Source: Acidobacteriota bacterium
Lineage (GTDB): Bacteria; Acidobacteriota; Blastocatellia; Pyrinomonadales; Pyrinomonadaceae
Length of the DNA stretch: 9,520 nucleotides
Assembly (NCBI GenBank): GCA_029777145.1
Contig: JAKOSS010000662.1
Span: forward strand, 1-9,520
Direction of reading: 5' to 3'
Position numbers and translations under genes: made by a program. Below are positions 1-9,520 of this stretch, piece by piece (the first letter of the stretch is position 1; each line of letters starts with the position of its first letter). Below the pieces are notes generated by a model. It saw only the letters and a program-made list of their open reading frames with translations, did not search any database and was not told where the DNA came from.

Positions 1-1404
1 CAGATGTTTACGGGGCACGGTTACCGGCCGTACACGTGGCAGAAGGTTTCGATCGGCGCCGAGAAAGACGGAAAACTGCGATCGATCATCCACGAGGCGA
101 TCGGAAACACCTCGACGATCGAGAATTTCACCGAGAGTCCGAACGGCTTCGGGCGCACGCTTTACGAATGCCCGAATTACCACACGCCGTACAAGGTCGC
201 GAAGACGGATCTGCCGACGCCGACGTGGATGCGCGCGCCGGGCGCGGTCACGGGCGCATTCGCGCTCGAATCGGCGATCGACGAGGTCGCGTACCAGTTG
301 AAGATCGATCCGGTTGAATTCCGCCTGATAAATTACTCGGAAAAGGATCCTGAAACCGGACGGCCGTTCTCCAGCAAGGCACTGCGCGAAGCGTTCAAAC
401 AGGGCGCCGCAAAGTTCGGCTGGGAAAAAAGAAAATTCGAACCTCGTTCAATGCGTGACGGAAACTGGCTCGTCGGCTGGGGCGTCGCGGTCGGAACTTG
501 GGGCGCGGGGCAGGCGCCGGCGTCAGTCCGAATAACGCTCGGTGCGGACGGAACGGCGCGGGTCGGCAGCGCGACCGCCGACATCGGACCGGGAACATAT
601 ACCGTCATCACGATGATCGCGGCTGAGTTTCTCGGAGTCGACCCCGAGAAAGTGAAATTCGAACTCGGCGACAGCGATCTTCCGAGCGCGCCGATGCAGG
701 GCGGATCGATCACCACCGCGTCCGTCGGCACGGCCGCTCAGGGCGCGGCGCTGGCGATCAAGACGAAACTCGTTGCGCTGGCCCAGAAAGATCCGAATTC
801 TCCGCTCGCCGGCGCGGTTGTTGACGATATCGAGATGTCTGACGGGTTCCTATCGGTGAAGGCGAATGCGGCGAGGAAGATTCCGATCGCCGACGTCATG
901 AAGGCGAACGGGATGAACGAGATCGTCGAAACATTCACGTCGACGCCGAATTCCGAGCGCCGCAATTACAGAACACAGGCGCACGGCGCACAGTTTGTCG
1001 AGGTAAAGGTCGACGAATCGCTCGGCATCGTGAAGGTCACACGAGTCGTCGAGGCGACGGCCTGCGGGCGCATCATGAATCCGAAGACATCGCATTCCCA
1101 GGAGATGGGCGGCGTCGTGTGGGGTATCGGAATGGCTCTCCAGGAAGAGACGGCAATCGACCATCGTTACGGCCGGATGATGACGACGAACTTCGCGACG
1201 TATCACATCCCGGTCAACGCGGACGTTCAGAGTGTGGAAACGGCGTTCGTCGAAGAGGAAGACAAGATCGTGAATCCGCTCGGGATCAAGGGAATGGGAG
1301 AACTTTGTCTCGTCGGCATCCCGGCGGCGATCGCGAATGCGGTCTTTCATGCGACAGGCAAGCGCGTCCGCGATCTTCCGATCACGCTCGATAAGTTGTT
1401 ATGA
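1..1404 (+). CDS. Xanthine dehydrogenase/aldehyde oxidase family molybdenum-binding subunit, C-terminal part (5' truncated by window edge)
   Basis: The large catalytic subunit of a molybdenum hydroxylase, which hydroxylates purines, aldehydes or N-heterocycles at the Mo centre. The reading frame is open from base 1, so the gene begins upstream; the ATG at base 4 is unlikely to be the start. Numbering from base 1, 467 residues are visible, against roughly 730-760 for full YagR/PaoC-type subunits. Family motifs are in the right order: MRAPG at residues 77-81 (the Arg lies near the cofactor in relatives), QGGSITTASVG from 233 (cofactor-binding loop), and KGMGEL near the end, with Glu434 in the place of the invariant catalytic Glu. 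The opening residues (GYRPYTWQ...) resemble the PaoC/YagR branch. FeS and FAD subunits are expected upstream, outside the window. The xdhC and mocA-like genes downstream fit a cytosine-dinucleotide cofactor. The substrate cannot be told from sequence. The family call is secure; the sub-family is inference. Confidence 0.93.
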   Translation, partial: QMFTGHGYRPYTWQKVSIGAEKDGKLRSIIHEAIGNTSTIENFTESPNGFGRTLYECPNYHTPYKVAKTDLPTPTWMRAPGAVTGAFALESAIDEVAYQLKIDPVEFRLINYSEKDPETGRPFSSKALREAFKQGAAKFGWEKRKFEPRSMRDGNWLVGWGVAVGTWGAGQAPASVRITLGADGTARVGSATADIGPGTYTVITMIAAEFLGVDPEKVKFELGDSDLPSAPMQGGSITTASVGTAAQGAALAIKTKLVALAQKDPNSPLAGAVVDDIEMSDGFLSVKANAARKIPIADVMKANGMNEIVETFTSTPNSERRNYRTQAHGAQFVEVKVDESLGIVKVTRVVEATACGRIMNPKTSHSQEMGGVVWGIGMALQEETAIDHRYGRMMTTNFATYHIPVNADVQSVETAFVEEEDKIVNPLGIKGMGELCLVGIPAAIANAVFHATGKRVRDLPITLDKLL

Positions 1405-2616: not shown

Positions 2617-3114
2617 ATGAGAACGGCTTTTCTCGCTGCGGTCGCTTCACTCACATTCGCCTGCTCGCTGTTCACCGCTAAGGTTTACCATCCGCCATCA
2701 ATGATCGAAGCCCATTCATATTCCGGCGGAAACTATGAGAAGGAATACCGGCTTCACTTCGAGCCAAACGGCCATGTTGTACTCTCGGGACGTTTGGGGG
2801 CCTTATCGTGCAATGAAGAATGGGATGTTGAACCGGAGAGGTTTCAAGCCACGGCGAAGGTAATCGATTCCGGCGATTTCTTTGCGATGGATTCCGAACC
2901 AAAAGAAAGGCCGAACGCGACCCACTTCACCTCCGTAGATCTCCATGTTGTGCTCGATGATAGGGAGAAAACGGTTAGAGGAATACGTGTCGATCAGCCT
3001 TCGGACGTCAATCGCAAGTTCTTCGCCTTTGTCCTTCACCTTGAGACGGTCACCGACGCGAAACGCCGGATCGACGATTGCTTTTCATGGGAGAAAAGAA
3101 CTTCCGACAAATAA
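2617..3114 (+). CDS. Unrecognised small exported protein or lipoprotein within the xdhC-mocA run
   Basis: A 165-residue protein of unknown function. The N-terminus MRTAFLAAVASLTFACSLF looks like a short signal peptide. Cys16 could be lipidated, but the residues before it (TFA) fit the lipobox only loosely, so ordinary export is equally possible. The body has alternating short strands: YRLHFEPNGHVVLSG (48-62), a GDFFAMDSE segment, and a stretch like VDLHVVLDDREKTVRGIRV. This recalls the layout of DUF6438-like proteins, but that is only an impression. Two cysteines (positions 68 and 157) remain after the signal. It starts one base after the xdhC stop, and the next gene begins directly at its own stop, so it is translated within the operon. 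The six full sequence lines counted by hand average about 51% GC, clearly below the neighbours (60-68% in lines sampled), suggesting a later insertion. A link to molybdenum enzymes is not evident. Confidence 0.75.
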   Translation: MRTAFLAAVASLTFACSLFTAKVYHPPSMIEAHSYSGGNYEKEYRLHFEPNGHVVLSGRLGALSCNEEWDVEPERFQATAKVIDSGDFFAMDSEPKERPNATHFTSVDLHVVLDDREKTVRGIRVDQPSDVNRKFFAFVLHLETVTDAKRRIDDCFSWEKRTSDK

Positions 3115-3723
3115 GTGAATCCACACTCCGAAATTCCAGATCCCAAATGCGTCCTCGTTCTCGCGGCCGGAGGATCGAGCCGTTTCGGTTCGTCTAAACA
3201 GATCGCTGAATTCGATGGCCGAACGCTTGTCCGCCGGGCGGTTGAGACCGCGCTCGAGAGCTCGGCAGATATGGTGTGCGTCGTCCTTGGCGCACAAGCG
3301 GACGAGATCCGACCTCTGATCGACGATCTCCCGACCCTCATCGTCGTCAATGAAGACTGGCCCGCCGGGATCGGATCGTCGATCGCCGCCGGGCTCGAGA
3401 CCGTCCGTGAACTCAACCCGGAACTCGCATCGACCGCGATCACGCTCGCAGATCAGCCGCTTGTAACATCCGGATTTATCGACAGCCTTTTCGCCGCGTC
3501 GGCAACCGGACAGATCGCGGCCACGGAATATGGCGGCACGCACGGAGTACCTTCGGTTTTTCCGCGCAAGTATTTCGACGAATTGCTCTCATTGCCTCCC
3601 GAATCCGGCGCTAAAACCCTGATATTGAAACATTTAGACGATGTTTCGTCGATCCCGTTTCCAGACGCCGCCATCGATATAGACGTCCCGAACGATCTCA
3701 AACGCCTTTCGGGTCGTTCGTAA
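3115..3723 (+). CDS. mocA: MocA-like molybdenum cofactor nucleotidyltransferase (MobA-like NTP transferase fold)
   Basis: Probably transfers CMP from CTP to molybdopterin to make the cytosine-dinucleotide cofactor used by xanthine dehydrogenase/aldehyde oxidase enzymes. The 202-residue length matches MocA. Visible motifs: LAAGGSSRFGSSKQ (16-29), the nucleotide-binding loop, with LAAG as usual in MocA rather than the LAGG of MobA; NEDWPAGIGSSIAAGL (79-94); LADQPLV (111-117), whose Asp is the expected metal ligand; GVPSVFP (144-150); SGAKTLILKHL (164-174); and DIDVPNDL (188-195). The start is a GTG directly after the previous gene's stop, with no close Shine-Dalgarno, so translation is probably coupled; the first 10 residues are not conserved-looking and the start is uncertain. 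The stop overlaps the first weak unit of the phased array before the receptor gene. CTP rather than GTP specificity is inferred from motif and neighbours. Confidence 0.9.
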   Translation: MNPHSEIPDPKCVLVLAAGGSSRFGSSKQIAEFDGRTLVRRAVETALESSADMVCVVLGAQADEIRPLIDDLPTLIVVNEDWPAGIGSSIAAGLETVRELNPELASTAITLADQPLVTSGFIDSLFAASATGQIAATEYGGTHGVPSVFPRKYFDELLSLPPESGAKTLILKHLDDVSSIPFPDAAIDIDVPNDLKRLSGRS

Positions 3724-3795
3724 CATTTCCGTAACTCACAATTAACCGATTCTTAACCCGCGATTAATCTGCCGTTAACCCGGCAGCGTTAACCT
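3720..3795 (+). promoter_or_regulatory. Array of TTAACC hexamers at 11-base spacing with putative -10 (Pho-box-like operator/promoter)
   Basis: Hexamers begin exactly 11 bases apart: GTAACA 3720, GTAACT 3731, TTAACC 3742, TTAACC 3753, TTAATC 3764, TTAACC 3775. The last four fit TTAA-Py-Py. One helical turn between direct repeats is how PhoB/PhoP/OmpR-family response regulators bind, and the cyanobacterial SphR box is described as 8-base repeats with a TTAA-Py-Py core and 3-base spacers, also an 11-base period. A further TTAACC at 3789 is out of phase by 3. Read as TAACCT (3790-3795) it lies 9 bases after the last phased unit, where a -10 would stand if the array replaces the -35; it matches the consensus poorly. 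The start of transcription would then be near 3802, giving a leader of about 100 bases. The spacing is seen; the regulator's identity is inferred. Confidence 0.65.
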
Positions 3796-3860
3796 CTCCC
3801 TTGCACCACGAAATTTCAACTTTTTGACACCACAGCGGAGGCAAACGGCGAGGGAATCGT

Positions 3861-3896
3861 ATGTTTGTCGGCCGCGTATTTCATCAGATTTATTAG
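3861..3896 (+). CDS. 11-residue upstream ORF (candidate leader peptide)
   Basis: ATG at 3861 opens an 11-codon frame, MFVGRVFHQIY, ending with TAG at 3894-3896. GAGGG (3850-3854) lies 6 bases before the ATG, a good Shine-Dalgarno distance. The stop codon overlaps the AGGAG of the receptor gene and lies 8 bases before its ATG, so a ribosome finishing the peptide would sit on the receptor's binding site. No run of one amino acid points to classical attenuation. Coupling of translation is the simplest role. It is too short for coding statistics and could be chance. Confidence 0.4.
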   Translation: MFVGRVFHQIY

Positions 3897-3899
3897 GAG
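3895..3899 (+). promoter_or_regulatory. Ribosome binding site that fixes the receptor start
   Basis: AGGAG lies 5 bases before the ATG at 3905. This, together with the signal peptide that begins right there, selects this start over the in-frame TTG 81 bases upstream. Confidence 0.85.
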
Positions 3900-3904
3900 T
3901 GAAT

Positions 3905-6900
3905 ATGCAGCTCAGCACGAGCCTCAGGGCTCTTACCATTTTGGCCGCGATCGCAATGACGGCGGTCGGCGCTTTCGGACAGACCGATCAGTCGCGTATC
4001 GTCGGGATCGTATCGGACGTTAACGGTGCCGTCGTTCCGGGCGCCCAAGTCGTCGTCAAGAACGAAAAGACCGGCGAATCGCGGTCGTTCGTCTCGGACA
4101 CCCAAGGCAATTTCATAGTCACGGCGCTCAAGCCGGCCTTCTACTCGGTGACCATCAGCCACGCCGGGTTCACGACATCGGAGAGCAAGAACGTTCAGCT
4201 TTCCGTCGGTCAGGAACTCAAACTGAACATCACCTTGCAACCCGAAGGCGCGGTTGCGGAGGTCAACATCGTTTCCGAATCCGAAGCGGGCATCAACCTC
4301 GCGTCGGCGAGTATGAGCGCGAACGTCAACCAGCGCGAGGTTGAAGGACTTCCCGTCAACGGACGTCAACTTTCGCAGCTCTACCTGCAGGCGCCGGGCG
4401 CGGTCAACAGCGGATCCGGCACGTTCGGCGACATCCGATTTTCGGGACGCGCCGTACAGCAGAACGTCATCCGTTACGACGGTGTCGAGGGCACGGGTAT
4501 CATCGACGCGAGTCCCGGCAACCTCAACGGCGAGGTTCCGTCACCGTTCCGGCTCCAGTCCAGCCTCGAGAACGTTCAGGAATTCCGCGTCGATTCGAGC
4601 AATTTCCCGGCCGAATACGGTACCGGTACGGGCGGCCAGATCAACGTCGTGACCAAGTCCGGCGGAAACGAGTTCCGCGGATCGGTCTTCGAATACCTGC
4701 GCCGCGGTTCGCTCGATGCGCGCAATTACTTTGACAACATCACACCGGGGATTCCGAAGAGCGAACTCAAGCTTGACCAGTTCGGCGGATCGATCGGCGG
4801 TCCGATCATCAAGGACAAGTTCTTCTTTTTCTTCTCCTACGAAGGCTATCGCGTCCGGTCGGGACTCAATTTTGTTGAGGCCGCACCGAGTCTCTCGCTC
4901 GCGCAGGCCGGCGCACTGATCCCGGGAACCAACACCCCCGTCAATCCTTCGATCCAGCCGTTCATCTCGGCTTTCCGGTCGCCGGACGCGGTGATCGTTC
5001 AAGGCGGAACGACGGCACCCGGTTTCGATATCGTCCAGCTTCAGGACACCGCAAAGACGGACGAGAACGCCTACTCGCTCCGCCTGGACTACAAGATCAA
5101 CGACCAGAACAACATGTACTTCCGGTTCTTCCGCGATAACGGCACGGACGATCGTCCGGAAGGCGTCTCCGGCCGGCGTGTTCTGATCGAGGCTCAGCCG
5201 CAGAACGGCGTCTTCGGATTGCAGACCGTGTTCGGAACGAACAAGGTCAACGAGTTCCGTCTCGGTTACAACGGTGCGCGGACGCGGATCAACGGACAGG
5301 CTCCGACGATCAACGGTTTTGACCTGTCGTCGGTGATCATCAATATCTCGGGCAGCGTCGCAAACACCGGTATCGCCGGACAGGGAACTTCGTCGGGTAT
5401 CTCGATCCCCGGCGGACTCGTCCGCGCCAACTCGGCGACAAACGGCCGCGGACAGCCGTACACGCCGTACTCGCTTTCGTTCATCGACAACTTCAGCTGG
5501 ACGCGCGGCACGCACAACCTGAAATTCGGCGGTGAAGTCCGCGTCATCCGGCTGTACACCGACCGCCTCGGCGGAACGACGTACACGTTCTCGAACCTCG
5601 CGGCATTCCTCGGAAACTCGCCGTCGTCGGTCCAGTATCTCGGCGACGTCTCGTCACCGAGCCCATTCAACAATGGATACACGGGAGAGCGCTTGGCGAA
5701 ACAGCAGTACTACATCGGCTACGCGCAGGACGAGTGGAAGGTCACGCCGAGCTTCACGCTCAGCTACGGTCTTCGTTACGAATACTACTCGCCGTTGACC
5801 GAAGCGAACAACGCTCTCGTTCTGTTCGACATCACCAACGGCACGTTCAAGCCGAACACGTCGGCGCCGTTCAAGACGTCGAAAACCAACTTCGGCCCGC
5901 GCGTCGCATTTACCTGGTCACCGAACGCCGACAAGACGTCGGGGATGTTCTCCGGCGGCAAGACGGTGATCCGCGGCGGTTTCGGAATTTACTACGGACC
6001 GGGTCAGACCGAAGATCAGATCCAGCCGATCGAAAGCGATCGCATCTCGTCGACGATCTCGAGCGGTTCGCTGCTCGCGTTCCCGGCGAATATCCCGGCG
6101 ATCGTCAACAACTTCAACTCGAACCCGACGAACCGCACGTATCAGCCGCGCGCCTATTCGAACGATTACAAGGTTCCGGAGCGCGTCTTTCAATACACGG
6201 TCTCGTGGCAGCAGGAATTGCCGTACAAACTCGTCTCGACGGTCGCGTACGTCGGCAGCCAGGGACGAAATCTGTTCCTTCGCAGCGTTGCCAACCGAAT
6301 TCTTCCGGGTTCGACGGTGATCGCCGACGGCACGAATCTGCCGACCGGCGTCGGTGTCATCAACCGCACGAACGGCAGCGGTCAGGTGATCGGCGTCAAC
6401 ACGGTCCGACAATTCGACATCATCTCGGGAACATCGCAATCGCGGCCGTTCGCCGAGATCGATTACAAGACTTCGGGCGGCGACGACAAGTACAACGCGC
6501 TCCAACTTTCGCTGGCACGGCGCTTCAACTCGGGTCTGACGCTGAACGCGCAGTACAGCTATTCGTCGAGCCGCGGTACGACCGCCGGTTCGAACGAAGC
6601 CCGGACGTCGGCTCAGCTTGAGAATTTCGAGGCTGACCGCGGCCGGAACAACTTCGATGTCCGTCACACCTTCAACCTGAGCGCGCTCTACGATCTTCCG
6701 ATCGGAAAGGGCCGCATGTGGGATCTTGGCAAAACGGGCAACTTCCTGCTCGGCGGCTGGGAGATCGGCGGCATCGTCAATGCCCGCAGCGGTCTGCCGG
6801 TTGAAGTGCTTGTCGTCCGTCCGGACACCGTTGCGCAATGCGTCGCGGCGGCCGGCTGTACGATTGGCTCGACGACCGTCGCGCAGGGATTCACGGCGAC

Positions 6901-7441
6901 TCTCGGAACCAACCCGAGTTCGGCGGTTCCGCTTCCGACGGGCTTCCAGGTTGTCGTCAATACGCCGGGCGGCGGTGCTTCGCGTAACGTCCGCCGGCCG
7001 AACGTGATCTCGGGTCAGCCGCTTTACCTCGACAACGACCGATTCATTCTGAATCCGGCGGCGTTTTCGATCCCGGAAGCCGGAACCTGGGGTGACCTGT
7101 CACGCAACGCTCTTCGCGGACCGCAGTTCAAGCAGTTCGACCTCGTTCTCGGGAAGAAGTTCAAATTTACCGAGACGATGAACGTCGAGTTCAGGACCGA
7201 GATCTTCAACATCTTCAACATCACGAATTTCTCGAATCCTTCGGCGACGCTCAGCAACGCGCTGCCGACGCTCAGCGTTTCGTCGGGGGCGTACACGCTC
7301 GGATCCGGACTTCAACCGGGTCAGGCATTCACGCAGAGCCGCGCCGGTTCGACCTGGGGACAGCTCCGTTCAACGGTCGAGCGTACGGTCGGTCTAGGTA
7401 CTAACCGCCAGATCCAGTTCGCTTTCCGGTTCAACTTCTAG
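3905..7441 (+). CDS. Oar-like TonB-dependent outer-membrane receptor with carboxypeptidase-regulatory-like N-terminal domain
   Basis: An outer-membrane transporter or binding protein of 1178 residues, a typical length for the expanded Acidobacteriota Oar-like family. Residues 1-25 are a signal peptide (hydrophobic LTILAAIAMTAVGAFG, cut likely after AFG). About 30-115 is a beta-sandwich domain of the carboxypeptidase-regulatory/Cna-B type (GIVSDVNGAVVPGAQVVV). From about 130 to 270 comes the plug (EGLPVNGRQLSQLYLQAPG; later FPAEYGTGTGGQINVVTKSG). The rest is a barrel rich in alternating aromatic strands (FFFFFSYEGYR; YYIGYAQDEWKVTPSFTLSY; FRTEIFNIFNITNF). The chain ends in FRFNF, with the terminal Phe used for barrel assembly. 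No clear TonB box was seen. The substrate is unknown; relatives are often assumed to take up sugars or peptides. An operator-like array and a short leader ORF precede it and a strong terminator follows, so it is probably its own transcription unit. Confidence 0.96.
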   Translation: MQLSTSLRALTILAAIAMTAVGAFGQTDQSRIVGIVSDVNGAVVPGAQVVVKNEKTGESRSFVSDTQGNFIVTALKPAFYSVTISHAGFTTSESKNVQLSVGQELKLNITLQPEGAVAEVNIVSESEAGINLASASMSANVNQREVEGLPVNGRQLSQLYLQAPGAVNSGSGTFGDIRFSGRAVQQNVIRYDGVEGTGIIDASPGNLNGEVPSPFRLQSSLENVQEFRVDSSNFPAEYGTGTGGQINVVTKSGGNEFRGSVFEYLRRGSLDARNYFDNITPGIPKSELKLDQFGGSIGGPIIKDKFFFFFSYEGYRVRSGLNFVEAAPSLSLAQAGALIPGTNTPVNPSIQPFISAFRSPDAVIVQGGTTAPGFDIVQLQDTAKTDENAYSLRLDYKINDQNNMYFRFFRDNGTDDRPEGVSGRRVLIEAQPQNGVFGLQTVFGTNKVNEFRLGYNGARTRINGQAPTINGFDLSSVIINISGSVANTGIAGQGTSSGISIPGGLVRANSATNGRGQPYTPYSLSFIDNFSWTRGTHNLKFGGEVRVIRLYTDRLGGTTYTFSNLAAFLGNSPSSVQYLGDVSSPSPFNNGYTGERLAKQQYYIGYAQDEWKVTPSFTLSYGLRYEYYSPLTEANNALVLFDITNGTFKPNTSAPFKTSKTNFGPRVAFTWSPNADKTSGMFSGGKTVIRGGFGIYYGPGQTEDQIQPIESDRISSTISSGSLLAFPANIPAIVNNFNSNPTNRTYQPRAYSNDYKVPERVFQYTVSWQQELPYKLVSTVAYVGSQGRNLFLRSVANRILPGSTVIADGTNLPTGVGVINRTNGSGQVIGVNTVRQFDIISGTSQSRPFAEIDYKTSGGDDKYNALQLSLARRFNSGLTLNAQYSYSSSRGTTAGSNEARTSAQLENFEADRGRNNFDVRHTFNLSALYDLPIGKGRMWDLGKTGNFLLGGWEIGGIVNARSGLPVEVLVVRPDTVAQCVAAAGCTIGSTTVAQGFTATLGTNPSSAVPLPTGFQVVVNTPGGGASRNVRRPNVISGQPLYLDNDRFILNPAAFSIPEAGTWGDLSRNALRGPQFKQFDLVLGKKFKFTETMNVEFRTEIFNIFNITNFSNPSATLSNALPTLSVSSGAYTLGSGLQPGQAFTQSRAGSTWGQLRSTVERTVGLGTNRQIQFAFRFNF

Positions 7442-7459
7442 AAACCGACGCTAACCTGA

Positions 7460-7498
7460 AAAGAAAAGAGGGCCGTAATTTGCGACCCTCTTTTCTTT
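7460..7498 (+). terminator. Intrinsic terminator of the receptor gene, possibly bidirectional
   Basis: A perfect 13-bp stem, AAAGAAAAGAGGG (7460-7472) with CCCTCTTTTCTTT (7486-7498), around a 13-base loop, 18 bases after the receptor stop. The 3' arm is U-rich and serves as the U-tract. Because the left arm is A-rich, the hairpin also reads as a terminator on the other strand, where it could end transcripts coming from the small - strand ORF. Confidence 0.9.
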
Positions 7499-7521
7499 GA
7501 CTAGGCAGAATTTCCGGCTTG

Positions 7522-7553
7522 GTAACCCGGAGTTAACTATTGAATTGTAGACT
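7522..7553 (+). promoter_or_regulatory. Pair of phased TAAC hexamers plus -10-like TAGACT
   Basis: GTAACC (7522) and TTAACT (7533) start 11 bases apart. TAGACT (7548-7553), matching TATAAT at 4 of 6, follows 9 bases after the second hexamer. No good -35 is present, as expected if an activator bound to the hexamers replaces it. The layout is the same as before the receptor gene. Predicted start near 7560. Two units only, so chance is possible. Confidence 0.4.
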
Positions 7554-7559
7554 CTTAGC

Positions 7560-7626
7560 GAAACCGATTAGTTGATCGGGTCACTTTGCCTCTCGGGCGA
7601 GTCCTTCAAAGGACCCGCCCCTTTTT
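7560..7626 (+). ncRNA. Candidate small RNA between promoter-like site and orphan terminator
   Basis: A strong terminator hairpin lies 96 bases beyond the receptor's own terminator with no + strand ORF between, so something short may be transcribed here. With the predicted start at about 7560 the RNA would be about 67 bases, a 35-base single-stranded head followed by the terminator. No known RNA family was recognised. It would be antisense to the 3' end of the 47-residue - strand ORF. Confidence 0.3.
7595..7625 (+). terminator. Orphan intrinsic terminator
   Basis: GGGCGAGTCC (7595-7604) pairs with GGACCCGCCC (7611-7620), ten positions with one A-C mismatch, around the loop TTCAAA, followed by CTTTTT. 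It is a normal intrinsic terminator on the + strand without an obvious gene before it. It could also be a back-up terminator for the receptor transcript. Confidence 0.8.
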
Positions 7627-7749
7627 GTATCTGCGGTTCCAGTATCGCCACCGCCAAGAGAGGGTGACCGGGTTGAGGGTGCGATACAGCCCGAGCTTTA
7701 CTGCGGCCAATTTCAACGTGTAATAAATGATGAAACTTAGATAGCGCAT
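7606..7749 (-). CDS. Possible 47-residue basic, aromatic-rich small protein
   Basis: On the - strand an ATG at 7749 opens a 47-codon frame ending in TGA within the loop of the + strand terminator. The peptide begins MRYLSFIIYYTLKLAAVKLG, a plausible hydrophobic or amphipathic helix, and ends with a tail rich in Trp, Tyr, Arg and Lys (SWRWRYWNRRYKKG), which would suit membrane association. About two thirds of third codon positions are G or C, as expected of a real gene here. No convincing Shine-Dalgarno is near the ATG. A hairpin (CTGAGG 7761-7766 with CCTCAG 7772-7777) lies just upstream. No family recognised. Between this ORF and the next - strand gene (7750-7875) no well-supported feature is seen. 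Confidence 0.35.
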   Translation of the reverse strand: MRYLSFIIYYTLKLAAVKLGLYRTLNPVTLSWRWRYWNRRYKKGRVL

Positions 7750-7875
7750 TCAGCTAGGCCCTGAGGCGCGTCCTCAGCGCGAATTTCATCCGACGCGGGA
7801 GCGTTGTCATGAATCGTTTCAGGAAGGTTGATGCTTCGCAGATGATGCAGATCGCGAGACTCGGCGCGCCGCTCC

Positions 7876-8064
7876 TCACAGGAGTCTCCGGGCGACGACA
7901 AGTCCGAGCGCGGAGAGCATGATGATCGTCGCGGCGCTCAGTGCGACCAGCGAGACGGTCGGAGGTTTGTCGGGGAAGTATGTCGAAAAGAGCATTTGAA
8001 AGCTCATTCCGATCGCCGCGATCCCGAGAATCAAAACGGTAATAACGGTGAATTCTTTCCTCAT
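7876..8064 (-). CDS. Small two-helix membrane protein of unknown function
   Basis: A 62-residue protein (65 if the ATG at 8073 is used) with two hydrophobic segments: about residues 7-27 (TVITVLILGIAAIGMSFQML) and 37-59 (TVSLVALSAATIIMLSALGL and on), joined by a short FSTYFPDKPP linker. It starts MRKEF and ends ARRLL, with basic residues flanking both helices. No family or function recognised. I prefer the ATG at 8064: neither start has a Shine-Dalgarno, and the -10-like TTTAAT at 8077-8072 predicts transcription from about 8065, which would make the mRNA leaderless and would put the 8073 ATG inside the promoter. The gene stands alone, and no clear terminator was found after it. Confidence 0.65.
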   Translation of the reverse strand: MRKEFTVITVLILGIAAIGMSFQMLFSTYFPDKPPTVSLVALSAATIIMLSALGLVVARRLL

Positions 8065-8071
8065 GGTCCGC

Positions 8072-8114
8072 ATTAAAACAGCCGACTATTAAGGGAATGT
8101 TAGTTGACCCTTAC
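8072..8114 (-). promoter_or_regulatory. Three phased hexamers and -10 before the small membrane protein
   Basis: Read on the - strand: GTAAGG (8114-8109), CTAACA (8103-8098) and TTAATA (8092-8087) start exactly 11 bases apart. Nine bases later comes TTTAAT (8077-8072), a 5 of 6 match to TATAAT. This is the same geometry as before the receptor gene, with more degenerate hexamers. The predicted start, about 8065, falls at the preferred ATG. Confidence 0.45.
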
Positions 8115-8155
8115 GAAAATGCGAACAATTTGAACGCCGAAGAATTCTGGATTTC

Positions 8156-8198
8156 TTAAGCGAAGCGTCACACGGCGGTAACATCGGCAGGCTAAACT
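8156..8198 (+). promoter_or_regulatory. Three phased hexamers and -10-like TAAACT before an orphan terminator
   Basis: TTAAGC (8156), GTCACA (8167) and GTAACA (8178) start 11 bases apart. TAAACT (8193-8198), 4 of 6 against TATAAT, follows 9 bases after the last. Only the third hexamer is a close TAAC match, so this is the weakest of the four sites. It lies 42 bases from the - strand set at 8087-8114, so the two would form a divergent pair. Confidence 0.3.
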
Positions 8199-8204
8199 TG
8201 AACT

Positions 8205-8258
8205 GTTTCTATCGCTGTGGGGTTTGGGGCAAAGCTTCTGGGTTTGCCCCATTTTTTT
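8205..8258 (+). ncRNA. Candidate very short RNA ending at a strong terminator
   Basis: The terminator at 8225-8258 needs a + strand transcript, but no credible + strand gene precedes it: the genes on both sides run on the - strand. With the predicted start near 8205 the product would be about 54 bases and mostly hairpin. It may be an sRNA, the end of an unseen longer RNA, or a barrier against antisense transcription into the converging M1-like gene. Confidence 0.28.
8225..8258 (+). terminator. Strong intrinsic terminator, + strand
   Basis: A perfect 9-bp stem, TGGGGCAAA (8225-8233) with TTTGCCCCA (8243-8251), a 9-base loop, then seven T (8252-8258). On the opposite strand there is no T-run after the stem, so its direction is clear. 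It stops + strand transcription 57 bases before the 3' end of the convergent M1-like gene. Confidence 0.9.
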
Positions 8259-8277
8259 GTTTTGGGCGACTGGCGGC

Positions 8278-8307
8278 AAATCAAAAGGCGGGCATTGGCG
8301 CCCGCCT
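8278..8307 (-). terminator. Intrinsic terminator of the M1-like gene
   Basis: AGGCGGGC (8286-8293) and GCCCGCCT (8300-8307) form a perfect 8-bp stem around a 6-base loop. On the - strand it is followed by TTTGATTT. It begins 7 bases after the stop codon of the M1-like gene, as expected of that gene's terminator. Confidence 0.88.
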
Positions 8308-8314
8308 CGTTCGG

Positions 8315-9520
8315 TCATTTATTGATCGCCGTCGTGTCCGTTTTATCACGCGGATCGTACGGATTCGCCTGATACTTCTTGACGGCTTCCTGAGCGTTGT
8401 CGTAATTGTCGCCGAGCGCGGCAGCCTTGCCGTAGGCGTCCGTCGCCCGCGTGCGGTCGCCCTTGGCGTCGTAGGCGTTGCCCTTCTTGATCAGCGCCCA
8501 GACGTGAAGCCAGGCTGGACGCGCGTCTCCCGAAACACCCAGCGCCTCAACGGCCTTAAAGTTGTCGATCGCGAGGTCGTAGTTCCGTTGCTCGAGATAA
8601 AGAAGGCCGAGGTGGTAGTAGATCCACGCATTCGAACGATCAAGTTTGAGCGCCGCTTCGAACTGCTGCTGCGCCTCGACATAATTTCCTTCCTTGAACT
8701 GCTCGATGCCGCGCCGGGCGATCGACGAGATCCGCAGATCGTCGCTGATGCGGAGTATCTTGTAGTCGGGATCGACGACGACCTCGAGCGGTTTGCCTTC
8801 GGATTCGATGTTGAAATCGGCGCTCGCTTCATCGACCTTCACCGTCACCGTCTTGTGTCCGTCGCCGCCTTCGGAAACGAGCTGAATATCGAGCGGAAGA
8901 CGCAGATTGTCATAGTTCTGACGAACCGTCCCGCGGGTCACGAACTTGCCGGCACGCGTCCGGATGATCAGATAGTCGGTCTTGAACTCGGGAACGCCGG
9001 TGCTCTCGACCCATCGCGCGAAAAAGTAACGCATATTTTCGCCCGCGATCTCGCCCGAAAGTTTCTCAAAATCCTCGATCGACGCCGTTTTTCCTCGATA
9101 CCGGTCAAGATAGGTGCGAAGCAGCTGATTGAATTTCTGATCGCCGAGCGTGTCACGCAGGAGCTTGAAGACGAATGCGCCCTTCGCGTACATGATGTAC
9201 TGATAGGCGGTCGACTGGTCGTCGAGTGTCGATGGCGCCCGGAGCAATGAAGAGGTCTGTTCGAACGTCAGGGCCTTTTCAAGCAACTCGCGCCGGAGCG
9301 AATCGAGCGCCGGACCCTGAAGCTGGCTTTCGCGCAACGAAAAGGCGCTGTACTCCGCCAATCCCTGTGAGAGCCACGCGTCGTCGAACGACTTCAGCCC
9401 GGCGGTCAATCCCCACCATTGATACGCGGCCTCGCGCTGCATCCTCTCGGAAGTGACCTCCCGCGATTGATCGAAGAACCGCTGCGCAACGAAAAGCATT
9501 CCCTGCGACGAGTAGAAATC
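8315..9520 (-). CDS. M1-aminopeptidase-like protein with lost zinc site and C-terminal TPR repeats (N-terminus outside the window)
   Basis: The frame is open to the window edge, so the gene starts beyond 9520; 401 residues are visible (numbered from 9520). The N-terminal part aligns with the M1 (gluzincin) catalytic domain: REAAYQWWG (29-37) stands where HExxHQWWG is expected, and WLSQGLAEY (49-57) where WLNEGFA is expected. The zinc ligands are Arg29, Tyr33 and Gln52 instead of His, His and Glu, at the exact HExxH-x18-E spacing; only the catalytic Glu30 remains. MYAKGA (110-115) keeps the Tyr of the usual YxKGA motif, and FFARWVESTGVPEF (166-179) is the normal end of the domain. A beta-sandwich-like stretch follows (about 182-265), then about three TPR repeats (270-382), suggesting protein binding. 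Zinc hydrolysis is unlikely; a scaffold or chaperone-like role is inference. Location is unknown, as the signal region is not visible. Confidence 0.88.
   Translation of the reverse strand, partial: DFYSSQGMLFVAQRFFDQSREVTSERMQREAAYQWWGLTAGLKSFDDAWLSQGLAEYSAFSLRESQLQGPALDSLRRELLEKALTFEQTSSLLRAPSTLDDQSTAYQYIMYAKGAFVFKLLRDTLGDQKFNQLLRTYLDRYRGKTASIEDFEKLSGEIAGENMRYFFARWVESTGVPEFKTDYLIIRTRAGKFVTRGTVRQNYDNLRLPLDIQLVSEGGDGHKTVTVKVDEASADFNIESEGKPLEVVVDPDYKILRISDDLRISSIARRGIEQFKEGNYVEAQQQFEAALKLDRSNAWIYYHLGLLYLEQRNYDLAIDNFKAVEALGVSGDARPAWLHVWALIKKGNAYDAKGDRTRATDAYGKAAALGDNYDNAQEAVKKYQANPYDPRDKTDTTAINK

Follow-up and report, generated by a model that had tools for sequence, protein, structure and literature searches.

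The six direct repeats located upstream of an Oar-like receptor gene in an Acidobacteriota genome are, with a probability that we put at roughly 90%, a PhoB operator (Pho box) standing in for the -35 element within a PhoB-activated promoter of the sigma-70 type. The repeats are found in a stretch of 9,520 nucleotides, which is called the window here. Comparison with related genomes provides the evidence for this assignment, because the arrangement recurs upstream of orthologous receptors and of genes for phosphate regulation. The features of the window are collected in Table 1.

Table 1. Genes, putative regulatory elements and candidate short RNAs of the window
Feature	Position	Strand	Remarks
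XDH-type molybdopterin-binding subunit	1-1404	+	end of gene
XdhC	1653-2615	+
165-aa protein	2617-3114	+	no Pfam match; between XdhC and MobA
MobA-like nucleotidyltransferase	3115-3723	+
Two distal repeats, GTAACA and GTAACT	3720-3736	+	second aligns to GTAATC of the closest genome found (G036)
Predicted Pho-type operator core: TTAACC, TTAACC, TTAATC, TTAACC	3742-3780	+	four conserved repeats, 11-bp period
Putative -10 element, TAACCT	3790-3795	+	exactly 9 bp past last repeat
AGGAG, likely ribosome-binding site before ATG 3905	3895-3899	+	from sequence
Oar-like outer-membrane receptor, 1178 aa	3905-7441	+	gene under the array; CarboxypepD_reg 32-112, OMP_b-brl_4 249-1119
Second predicted Pho-type promoter, two repeats	7522-7553	+	GTAACC-N5-TTAACT-N9-TAGACT
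Candidate short transcript	7558-7632	+	GC hairpin and T-run; ends uncertain; fold z-score -2.62, 5/200 shuffles as good
Third predicted Pho-type promoter, two repeats	8167-8198	+	GTCACA-N5-GTAACA-N9-TAAACT
Candidate short RNA	8203-8262	+	G036 shares its core and hairpin; ends uncertain; fold z-score -2.45, 3/200 shuffles as good
M1-peptidase/TPR protein	beyond 873-bp gap behind receptor	convergent

The sequence-only reading of this DNA had claimed six hexamers with exact 11-base phasing. GTAACA, GTAACT, TTAACC, TTAACC, TTAATC and TTAACC indeed begin at 3720, 3731, 3742, 3753, 3764 and 3775, which are identical to the positions claimed. Period 11 yields a run of six [GT]T[AC]A[CT] words, and no other period between 8 and 14 contains even a run of three. 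No run of four appeared in 1000 dinucleotide shuffles of the window when both strands were considered. An initial scan with an IUPAC pattern gave 11 matches versus 2.19 expected, with 8 as the largest number in a shuffle. The first hexamer is the weakest of the six because it overlaps the stop codon of the MobA-like gene (3721-3723). A seventh TTAACC at 3789 is out of phase with the array and is best read as part of the predicted -10 element, which would thereby account for it. The -10 element is absent from the sequence-only reading.

The receptor belongs to a family in which PF13620 and PF25183 are matched in 35 of 35 members. The Pfam Plug domain has no match in the window protein; it is present in four array-bearing paralogues, in one of them below the cut-off. 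A sequence search for a solved relative of the receptor returned none, and its AlphaFold model is poor (mean pLDDT 56.7, pTM 0.43). When this low-confidence model was submitted to Foldseek, the 50 matches listed were all TonB-dependent transporters by title, with TM-scores of 0.17-0.36. Oar-like receptors are numerous, with 7 to 18 matches per genome when part of the candidates were scored, and no task for them was found in the open-licence literature surveyed.

Conservation and pattern scans were run in relatives of the window genome, namely 119 genomes from the family of G001, which the title of its locus L001 identifies as a Pyrinomonadaceae MAG. The contig database holds 70 loci related to the window receptor, and the protein database holds a sequence (P0001) that is 96% identical. 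The receptor search was positive in all 119 genomes, and orthologues were found in a minority of them. We assembled 38 upstream regions (set A) from the window and 37 of the 38 listed orthologues that have at least 50% identity and an N-terminus. The remaining orthologue (G073:C158) was overlooked and has a pattern match 183 bp upstream; fragments without an N-terminus were excluded. Set B comprises the upstream regions of 38 out of 40 fetched paralogues from the same genomes (29-34% identity), taken down the list and not at random; L234 and L249 were too short.

None of the 38 members of set A falls below 18 of 20 when scored for four [TG]T[AC]A[CT] words in 11-bp steps within 330 bp, whereas the best score in set B is 16 of 20. 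The array is thus kept before every orthologous receptor in set A and is present as four repeats in none of the 38 sampled paralogues, although the latter count is valid for that sample alone, because further paralogues with arrays turned up later. Pairs of words at distance 11 number 83 in set A versus 1 in set B, and triples occur in 23 versus 0 sequences.

The consensus of the aligned set A sites is TTAACAnnnATTTAAcannnnnTTCACnnnnnnTTAAC, followed after ten more bases by TAnnCT, which is nine bases past the last hexamer. The sequence TANNNT has a background rate of 1.4% per position. With the register and the -10 element selected jointly, it is located 9 bp past the array in all 38 receptor promoters. 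If only the repeats decide the register and ties go to the downstream option, the distance is exact in 35 of the 38 promoters; in the remaining three, two registers score equally and the earlier one fits. The repeat words drift among TTAAC, GTAAC and TTCAC while the register stays. As judged from these alignments, the conserved core is four repeats.

The signal extends to 31 distant receptors with 43-59% identity, which by title include Terriglobia, Bryobacterales and Edaphobacter. Among these, 33 pairs occur at distance 11 when the third base of the word is A, C or G. Other distances give at most five pairs, except for the harmonic at 22, which gives 14. A three-repeat score of at least 14 of 15 is reached by 17 of the 31, and 14 are below it. 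Edaphobacter modestus DSM 18101 (L038) and Edaphobacter aggregans DSM 19364 (L027) both score 15 of 15, and Terriglobus roseus DSM 18391 (L036), where pst genes are close by, has a weak array that scores 13. Twenty loci with at most 33% identity have two pairs at distance 11, and one of the 20 reaches a score of 14.

Arrays of this type also precede the genes for PhoB-like regulators. We took 20 consecutive PhoB orthologues in the list, passing over loci that had been fetched before and one duplicate, and used 20 other OmpR-family regulators with 44-50% identity as controls. The array, followed by 9 bp and TANNNT, is found upstream of 18 of the 20 phoB or phoU-phoB loci and upstream of none of the controls. 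The two phoB loci that lack the site are L302, which is truncated where its contig stops, and L310. Repeats, nine bases and TANNNT are likewise present at six of six further phoB or phoU-phoB loci where the regulator is away from the receptor, two of the six having been chosen for known array matches. Taken with the conservation described above, this comparison supports phosphate control by a PhoB-like regulator; the sequence-only reading had inferred phosphate or other two-component control.

At pstS, the site is present in 18 of 31 upstream regions (5 forward, 12 divergent only and 1 both) and absent from 13. This count was made without a control set, and at five loci the stretch scanned is uncertain because the flanks are shorter. 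Three-repeat arrays near pstS are directed away from that gene at L096, L128, L134, L139, L140, L147, L150 and L152, and the L096 locus has a possible small ORF, read by eye, that is divergent from pstS.

In some genomes the receptor shares a gene row with phosphate genes. The row at L004 consists of the array, the receptor, a 155-aa winged-helix protein, pstS, pstC, pstA, pstB, phoU and a PhoB-type regulator, and its PstS, PstC, PstA, PstB and PhoU proteins each score above an NCBIfam cut-off. The winged-helix protein, encoded at 9482-9949 between the receptor and pstS, is of the OmpR type and lacks a receiver (Trans_reg_C). In genome G003 (L212), the row includes the array, the receptor, a DUF47 protein, a Pit-like permease, a PhoB-type regulator that is 75% identical to the one at L004, and a PAS histidine kinase. 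The permease matches the PitA model far under its cut-off, and the protein in G001 that it resembles is PHO4. A PhoB-type gene adjoins phoU, a PhoR-like kinase or pst at L004 and L204 by family models, and at L209-L211 by resemblance only.

Genes of the pst group are located within the fetched stretch in 7 of 42 closer receptor loci (L004, L014, L015, L016, L019, L034 and L036) and in none of 28 distant receptor loci, two weak regulator matches apart. Across the family, 47 matches to receptor orthologues were considered, and for 8 of them pstS or phoB is no more than 15 kb away on the contig. At position 4520 of L298 (minus strand; G004:C54), three repeats, nine bases and TAGTCT stand directly before a 602-aa ORF that is upstream of the receptor-pst row. 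By its coordinates, this ORF is the gene that ends as Porin_5 at L004 3-1091, and its product is possibly a phosphate porin.

Proteins of the OmpR family bind direct repeats that are about one helical turn apart, and the array might be bound by a member other than PhoB, such as the small receiver-less winged-helix protein whose gene lies in the L004 row. The regulators from L004 and G003 also score under the cut-off of the PhoB model TIGR02154, with 242.4 and 243.1 bits relative to 296.2. However, this is the best NCBIfam model for both, and the closest solved relative by sequence is RegX3, which is a mycobacterial phosphate regulator. In addition, the array heads phoB or phoU-phoB in nearly all genomes sampled and none of the other OmpR-family regulators, and at L003 and L212 a PhoB-like regulator occupies the receptor's own row, where no separate small winged-helix gene was matched. 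We consider it improbable that a regulator other than PhoB binds the array.

Binding at an operator that touches a promoter can also block polymerase, and the array does touch its predicted promoter. A PhoB-like protein might accordingly repress transcription here, such that the receptor would be produced under ample phosphate. We rejected this arrangement and regard it as quite unlikely, because the spacing and orientation equal those at phoB operon promoters within the family and are near those of Escherichia coli (PMC1906773). In the latter species, PhoB repeats are located 10 bp before TAN3T/A (PMC1906773) and the Pho box is composed of two 11-nt units (PMC4415409). The putative acidobacterial promoter resembles E. 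coli PhoB promoters in having head-to-tail 11-bp repeats about 10 bp before the -10 element, but differs in its word (TTAAC/TTCAC rather than CTGTCAT), in the number of repeats (four conserved, and six in the case of the window, rather than two), and in having an Oar-like receptor as its target.

The genome scan proposed by the sequence-only reading was run in the relatives and showed enrichment, so that neither of the outcomes which that reading had named as refuting, a loss of the hexamers before orthologous receptors or a scan lacking enrichment, was observed. The pattern TTAAY-N6-TTAA-N7-KTCAY, derived from set A and matched by 27 of its 38 sites, has 110 matches in 73 of the 119 genomes versus 17 in total for the reversed control. 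Thirty of the matches are classed with a receptor orthologue and are not independent, because the pattern was derived from set A; two of them lie 3.3 and 6.7 kb off and so are not the receptor's own promoter. Without these 30, the comparison is 80 versus 17, and 21 of the 80 are located within 10 kb upstream of pstS or phoB on the same strand. Overall, 51 of the 110 have this relation to a receptor orthologue (the 30, some also near others), phoB or pstS, 4 are near these anchor genes in another orientation, and 55 are near none of the three. Phased TTAA-rich stretches can bend DNA, but the idea that AT-rich intergenic DNA or curvature gave rise to the repeats as a side effect, with no regulator bound, has a negligible likelihood and is refuted at the level of statistics by the lack of four-runs in 1000 shuffles, the gene-specific occurrence, the drift of words in a kept register and the excess over the reversed pattern.

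The matches reveal that other Oar-like receptors beyond the orthologues of the window receptor also carry such arrays. Thirty loci were taken in list order, each from a different genome, and a -10 element at the fixed distance is present in 21 of them. Fourteen of these are found before Oar-like receptors, six before phoU or phoB (three of the six calls being phoU by resemblance only) and one (L259) before no gene. Among the nine loci without a -10 element, one precedes a receptor. Single linkage of the array-bearing receptors at 42% identity gives groups of 17, 4, 2 and 1, where the pair is one locus seen twice and the singleton is L089, which has no -10 element. Receptors just 26% identical to each other are included in the group of 17. 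At L259 (also L285; G020:C89), the receptor-type array and -10 element are followed by only a convergent M1 peptidase and no receptor, and this array looks like a promoter left behind after receptor loss.

Genome G036 is the closest found, matching the window at 93% for XDH, 85% for XdhC and 96% for the C-terminal half of the receptor; a search of it for PstS-type proteins (PF12849) gave none. After its MobA-like gene (L205), a five-repeat array occurs with TATTCT. The window leader (3700-3905) aligns with L205 6330-6570 from the MobA stop codon to the ATG with a score of 115, compared with at most 29 for shuffled sequences. The receptor behind this homologous promoter is a different one, with 26% identity to the window receptor over the part present. 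The G036 orthologue of the window receptor is located on another contig beside an M1 peptidase. From about 7630 on, the gap in the window is homologous to G036 DNA located behind the end of an Oar-like receptor.

In these alignments, the promoter and the downstream flank match G036 and the receptor between them does not. It is possible that the receptor was exchanged behind a kept Pho promoter, or that the difference is due to an assembly join, given the G036 contig ends and the draft status of the genomes. We rejected the idea that the window promoter derives from the one typical of its receptor subfamily, since three promoters of that type (receptor I) score 34-47 relative to 115 for G036. 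The window MobA-like protein is just 49% identical to its G036 counterpart, and the window has the extra 165-aa ORF. This MobA region might reflect local replacement or fast change.

Two repeats followed by nine bases and TANNNT are found at three places in the whole window: the receptor promoter and positions 7522 and 8167 in the gap behind the receptor. Among 5000 shuffles of the 873-bp gap, none has two or more such sites and two have one. Behind each of the two additional predicted promoters is a short stretch that has a potential hairpin and a T-run, and we consider 7522-7632 and 8167-8262 as candidate Pho-controlled small RNAs. The 7522 promoter has no counterpart at the matching place in G036, and the stretch at 7558-7632 has no DNA match in the 119 genomes, which is uninformative for this type of search. 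For the 8167 promoter, the geometry is kept in G036:C120 (L340, L341) with changed letters (GTCACA-N5-TTCACA-N9-TAGAGT), and local similarity between the window and G036 ends after the T-run of the second short stretch.

When 7400-8340 was scanned for promoters and terminators, no sigma-70 site and neither of the two hairpins came up; the scan gave two minus-strand terminator-like sites near 8285-8308, versus 1.5 expected. Rfam has no matches in the window at E values up to 0.5. A covariance model built from the window and G036 copies necessarily matches G036 and has no match in any other genome among the 119, suggesting that the second short element is young or fast-changing. A gene for a choice-of-anchor-I protein follows this element in G036, where the element could thus be a leader, and in the window no plus-strand gene was seen between it and the convergent peptidase. 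On the minus strand at 7876-8073, divergent from the 8167 promoter, the window has a 65-aa ORF resembling a small membrane protein, with a 62-aa counterpart at L341 2233-2421.

These arrangements could be explained if the acidobacterial Pho promoter is a fixed slot with exchanged Oar-like receptors that constitute an outer-membrane phosphorus gate, and if the slot also brings Pho-controlled short RNAs. The receptors would be viewed as a gate because different Oar-like receptors are swapped behind the fixed slot. We offer this proposal tentatively and would bet modestly against it.

Several known systems share parts of the predicted PhoB-activated promoter or its target. PhoB and SphR bind such repeats, and SphR requires at least three tandem CTTAACCT repeats with 3-bp linkers (PMC1906773), which gives the SphR box a period of 11 bp. 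The cyanobacterial word nearly equals the acidobacterial TTAACC. The likeness is in the operator word alone; the phylum is different, and the sections of that source used here name no TonB-dependent receptor as an SphR target. In Flavobacterium, phosphate depletion induces outer-membrane TonB-dependent transporters and PusCD, including the orphan Fjoh_3841 with pf13620 (PMC8115612), and the window receptor has the same N-terminal domain family. This likeness is by domain family. The Flavobacterium system is from Bacteroidota, has some SusCD-like pairs, and is described in the sections used of PMC8115612 with no mention of a promoter array. PhoB of Caulobacter crescentus controls various TonB-dependent receptors thought to import phosphate donors (PMC11208175). 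Caulobacter belongs to another phylum, and the sections of that report used here make no mention of Oar-like receptors or of arrays with four to six repeats. The promoter was not found in the titles and abstract starts of open-licence literature on the Pho regulon, PhoB, pstS or TonB receptors of Acidobacteria, or on Oar and phosphate.

If the array is a PhoB operator, low phosphate would cause a PhoR-like kinase to phosphorylate the PhoB-like regulator, which would occupy the 11-bp repeats head to tail and recruit RNA polymerase to the -10 element that lies 9 bp past them. Recruitment is suggested because the geometry is fixed. The receptor mRNA would start about 100 bases before the ATG at 3905, and a phosphorus compound would be imported through the receptor. 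Because the conserved Pho promoter is predicted at the receptor and also at genes for phosphate transport and sensing, the receptor family very probably serves phosphorus uptake.

The sites together provide an operator definition, TTAAC-N6-TTAA-N7-KTCAC-N6-KTAAC-N10-TANNCT, with which the Pho regulon of acidobacteria, a poorly cultured phylum of soil, might be read. The predicted promoter would link phosphate shortage to one widespread receptor subfamily and to several further receptors, and makes what they import a directly testable question.
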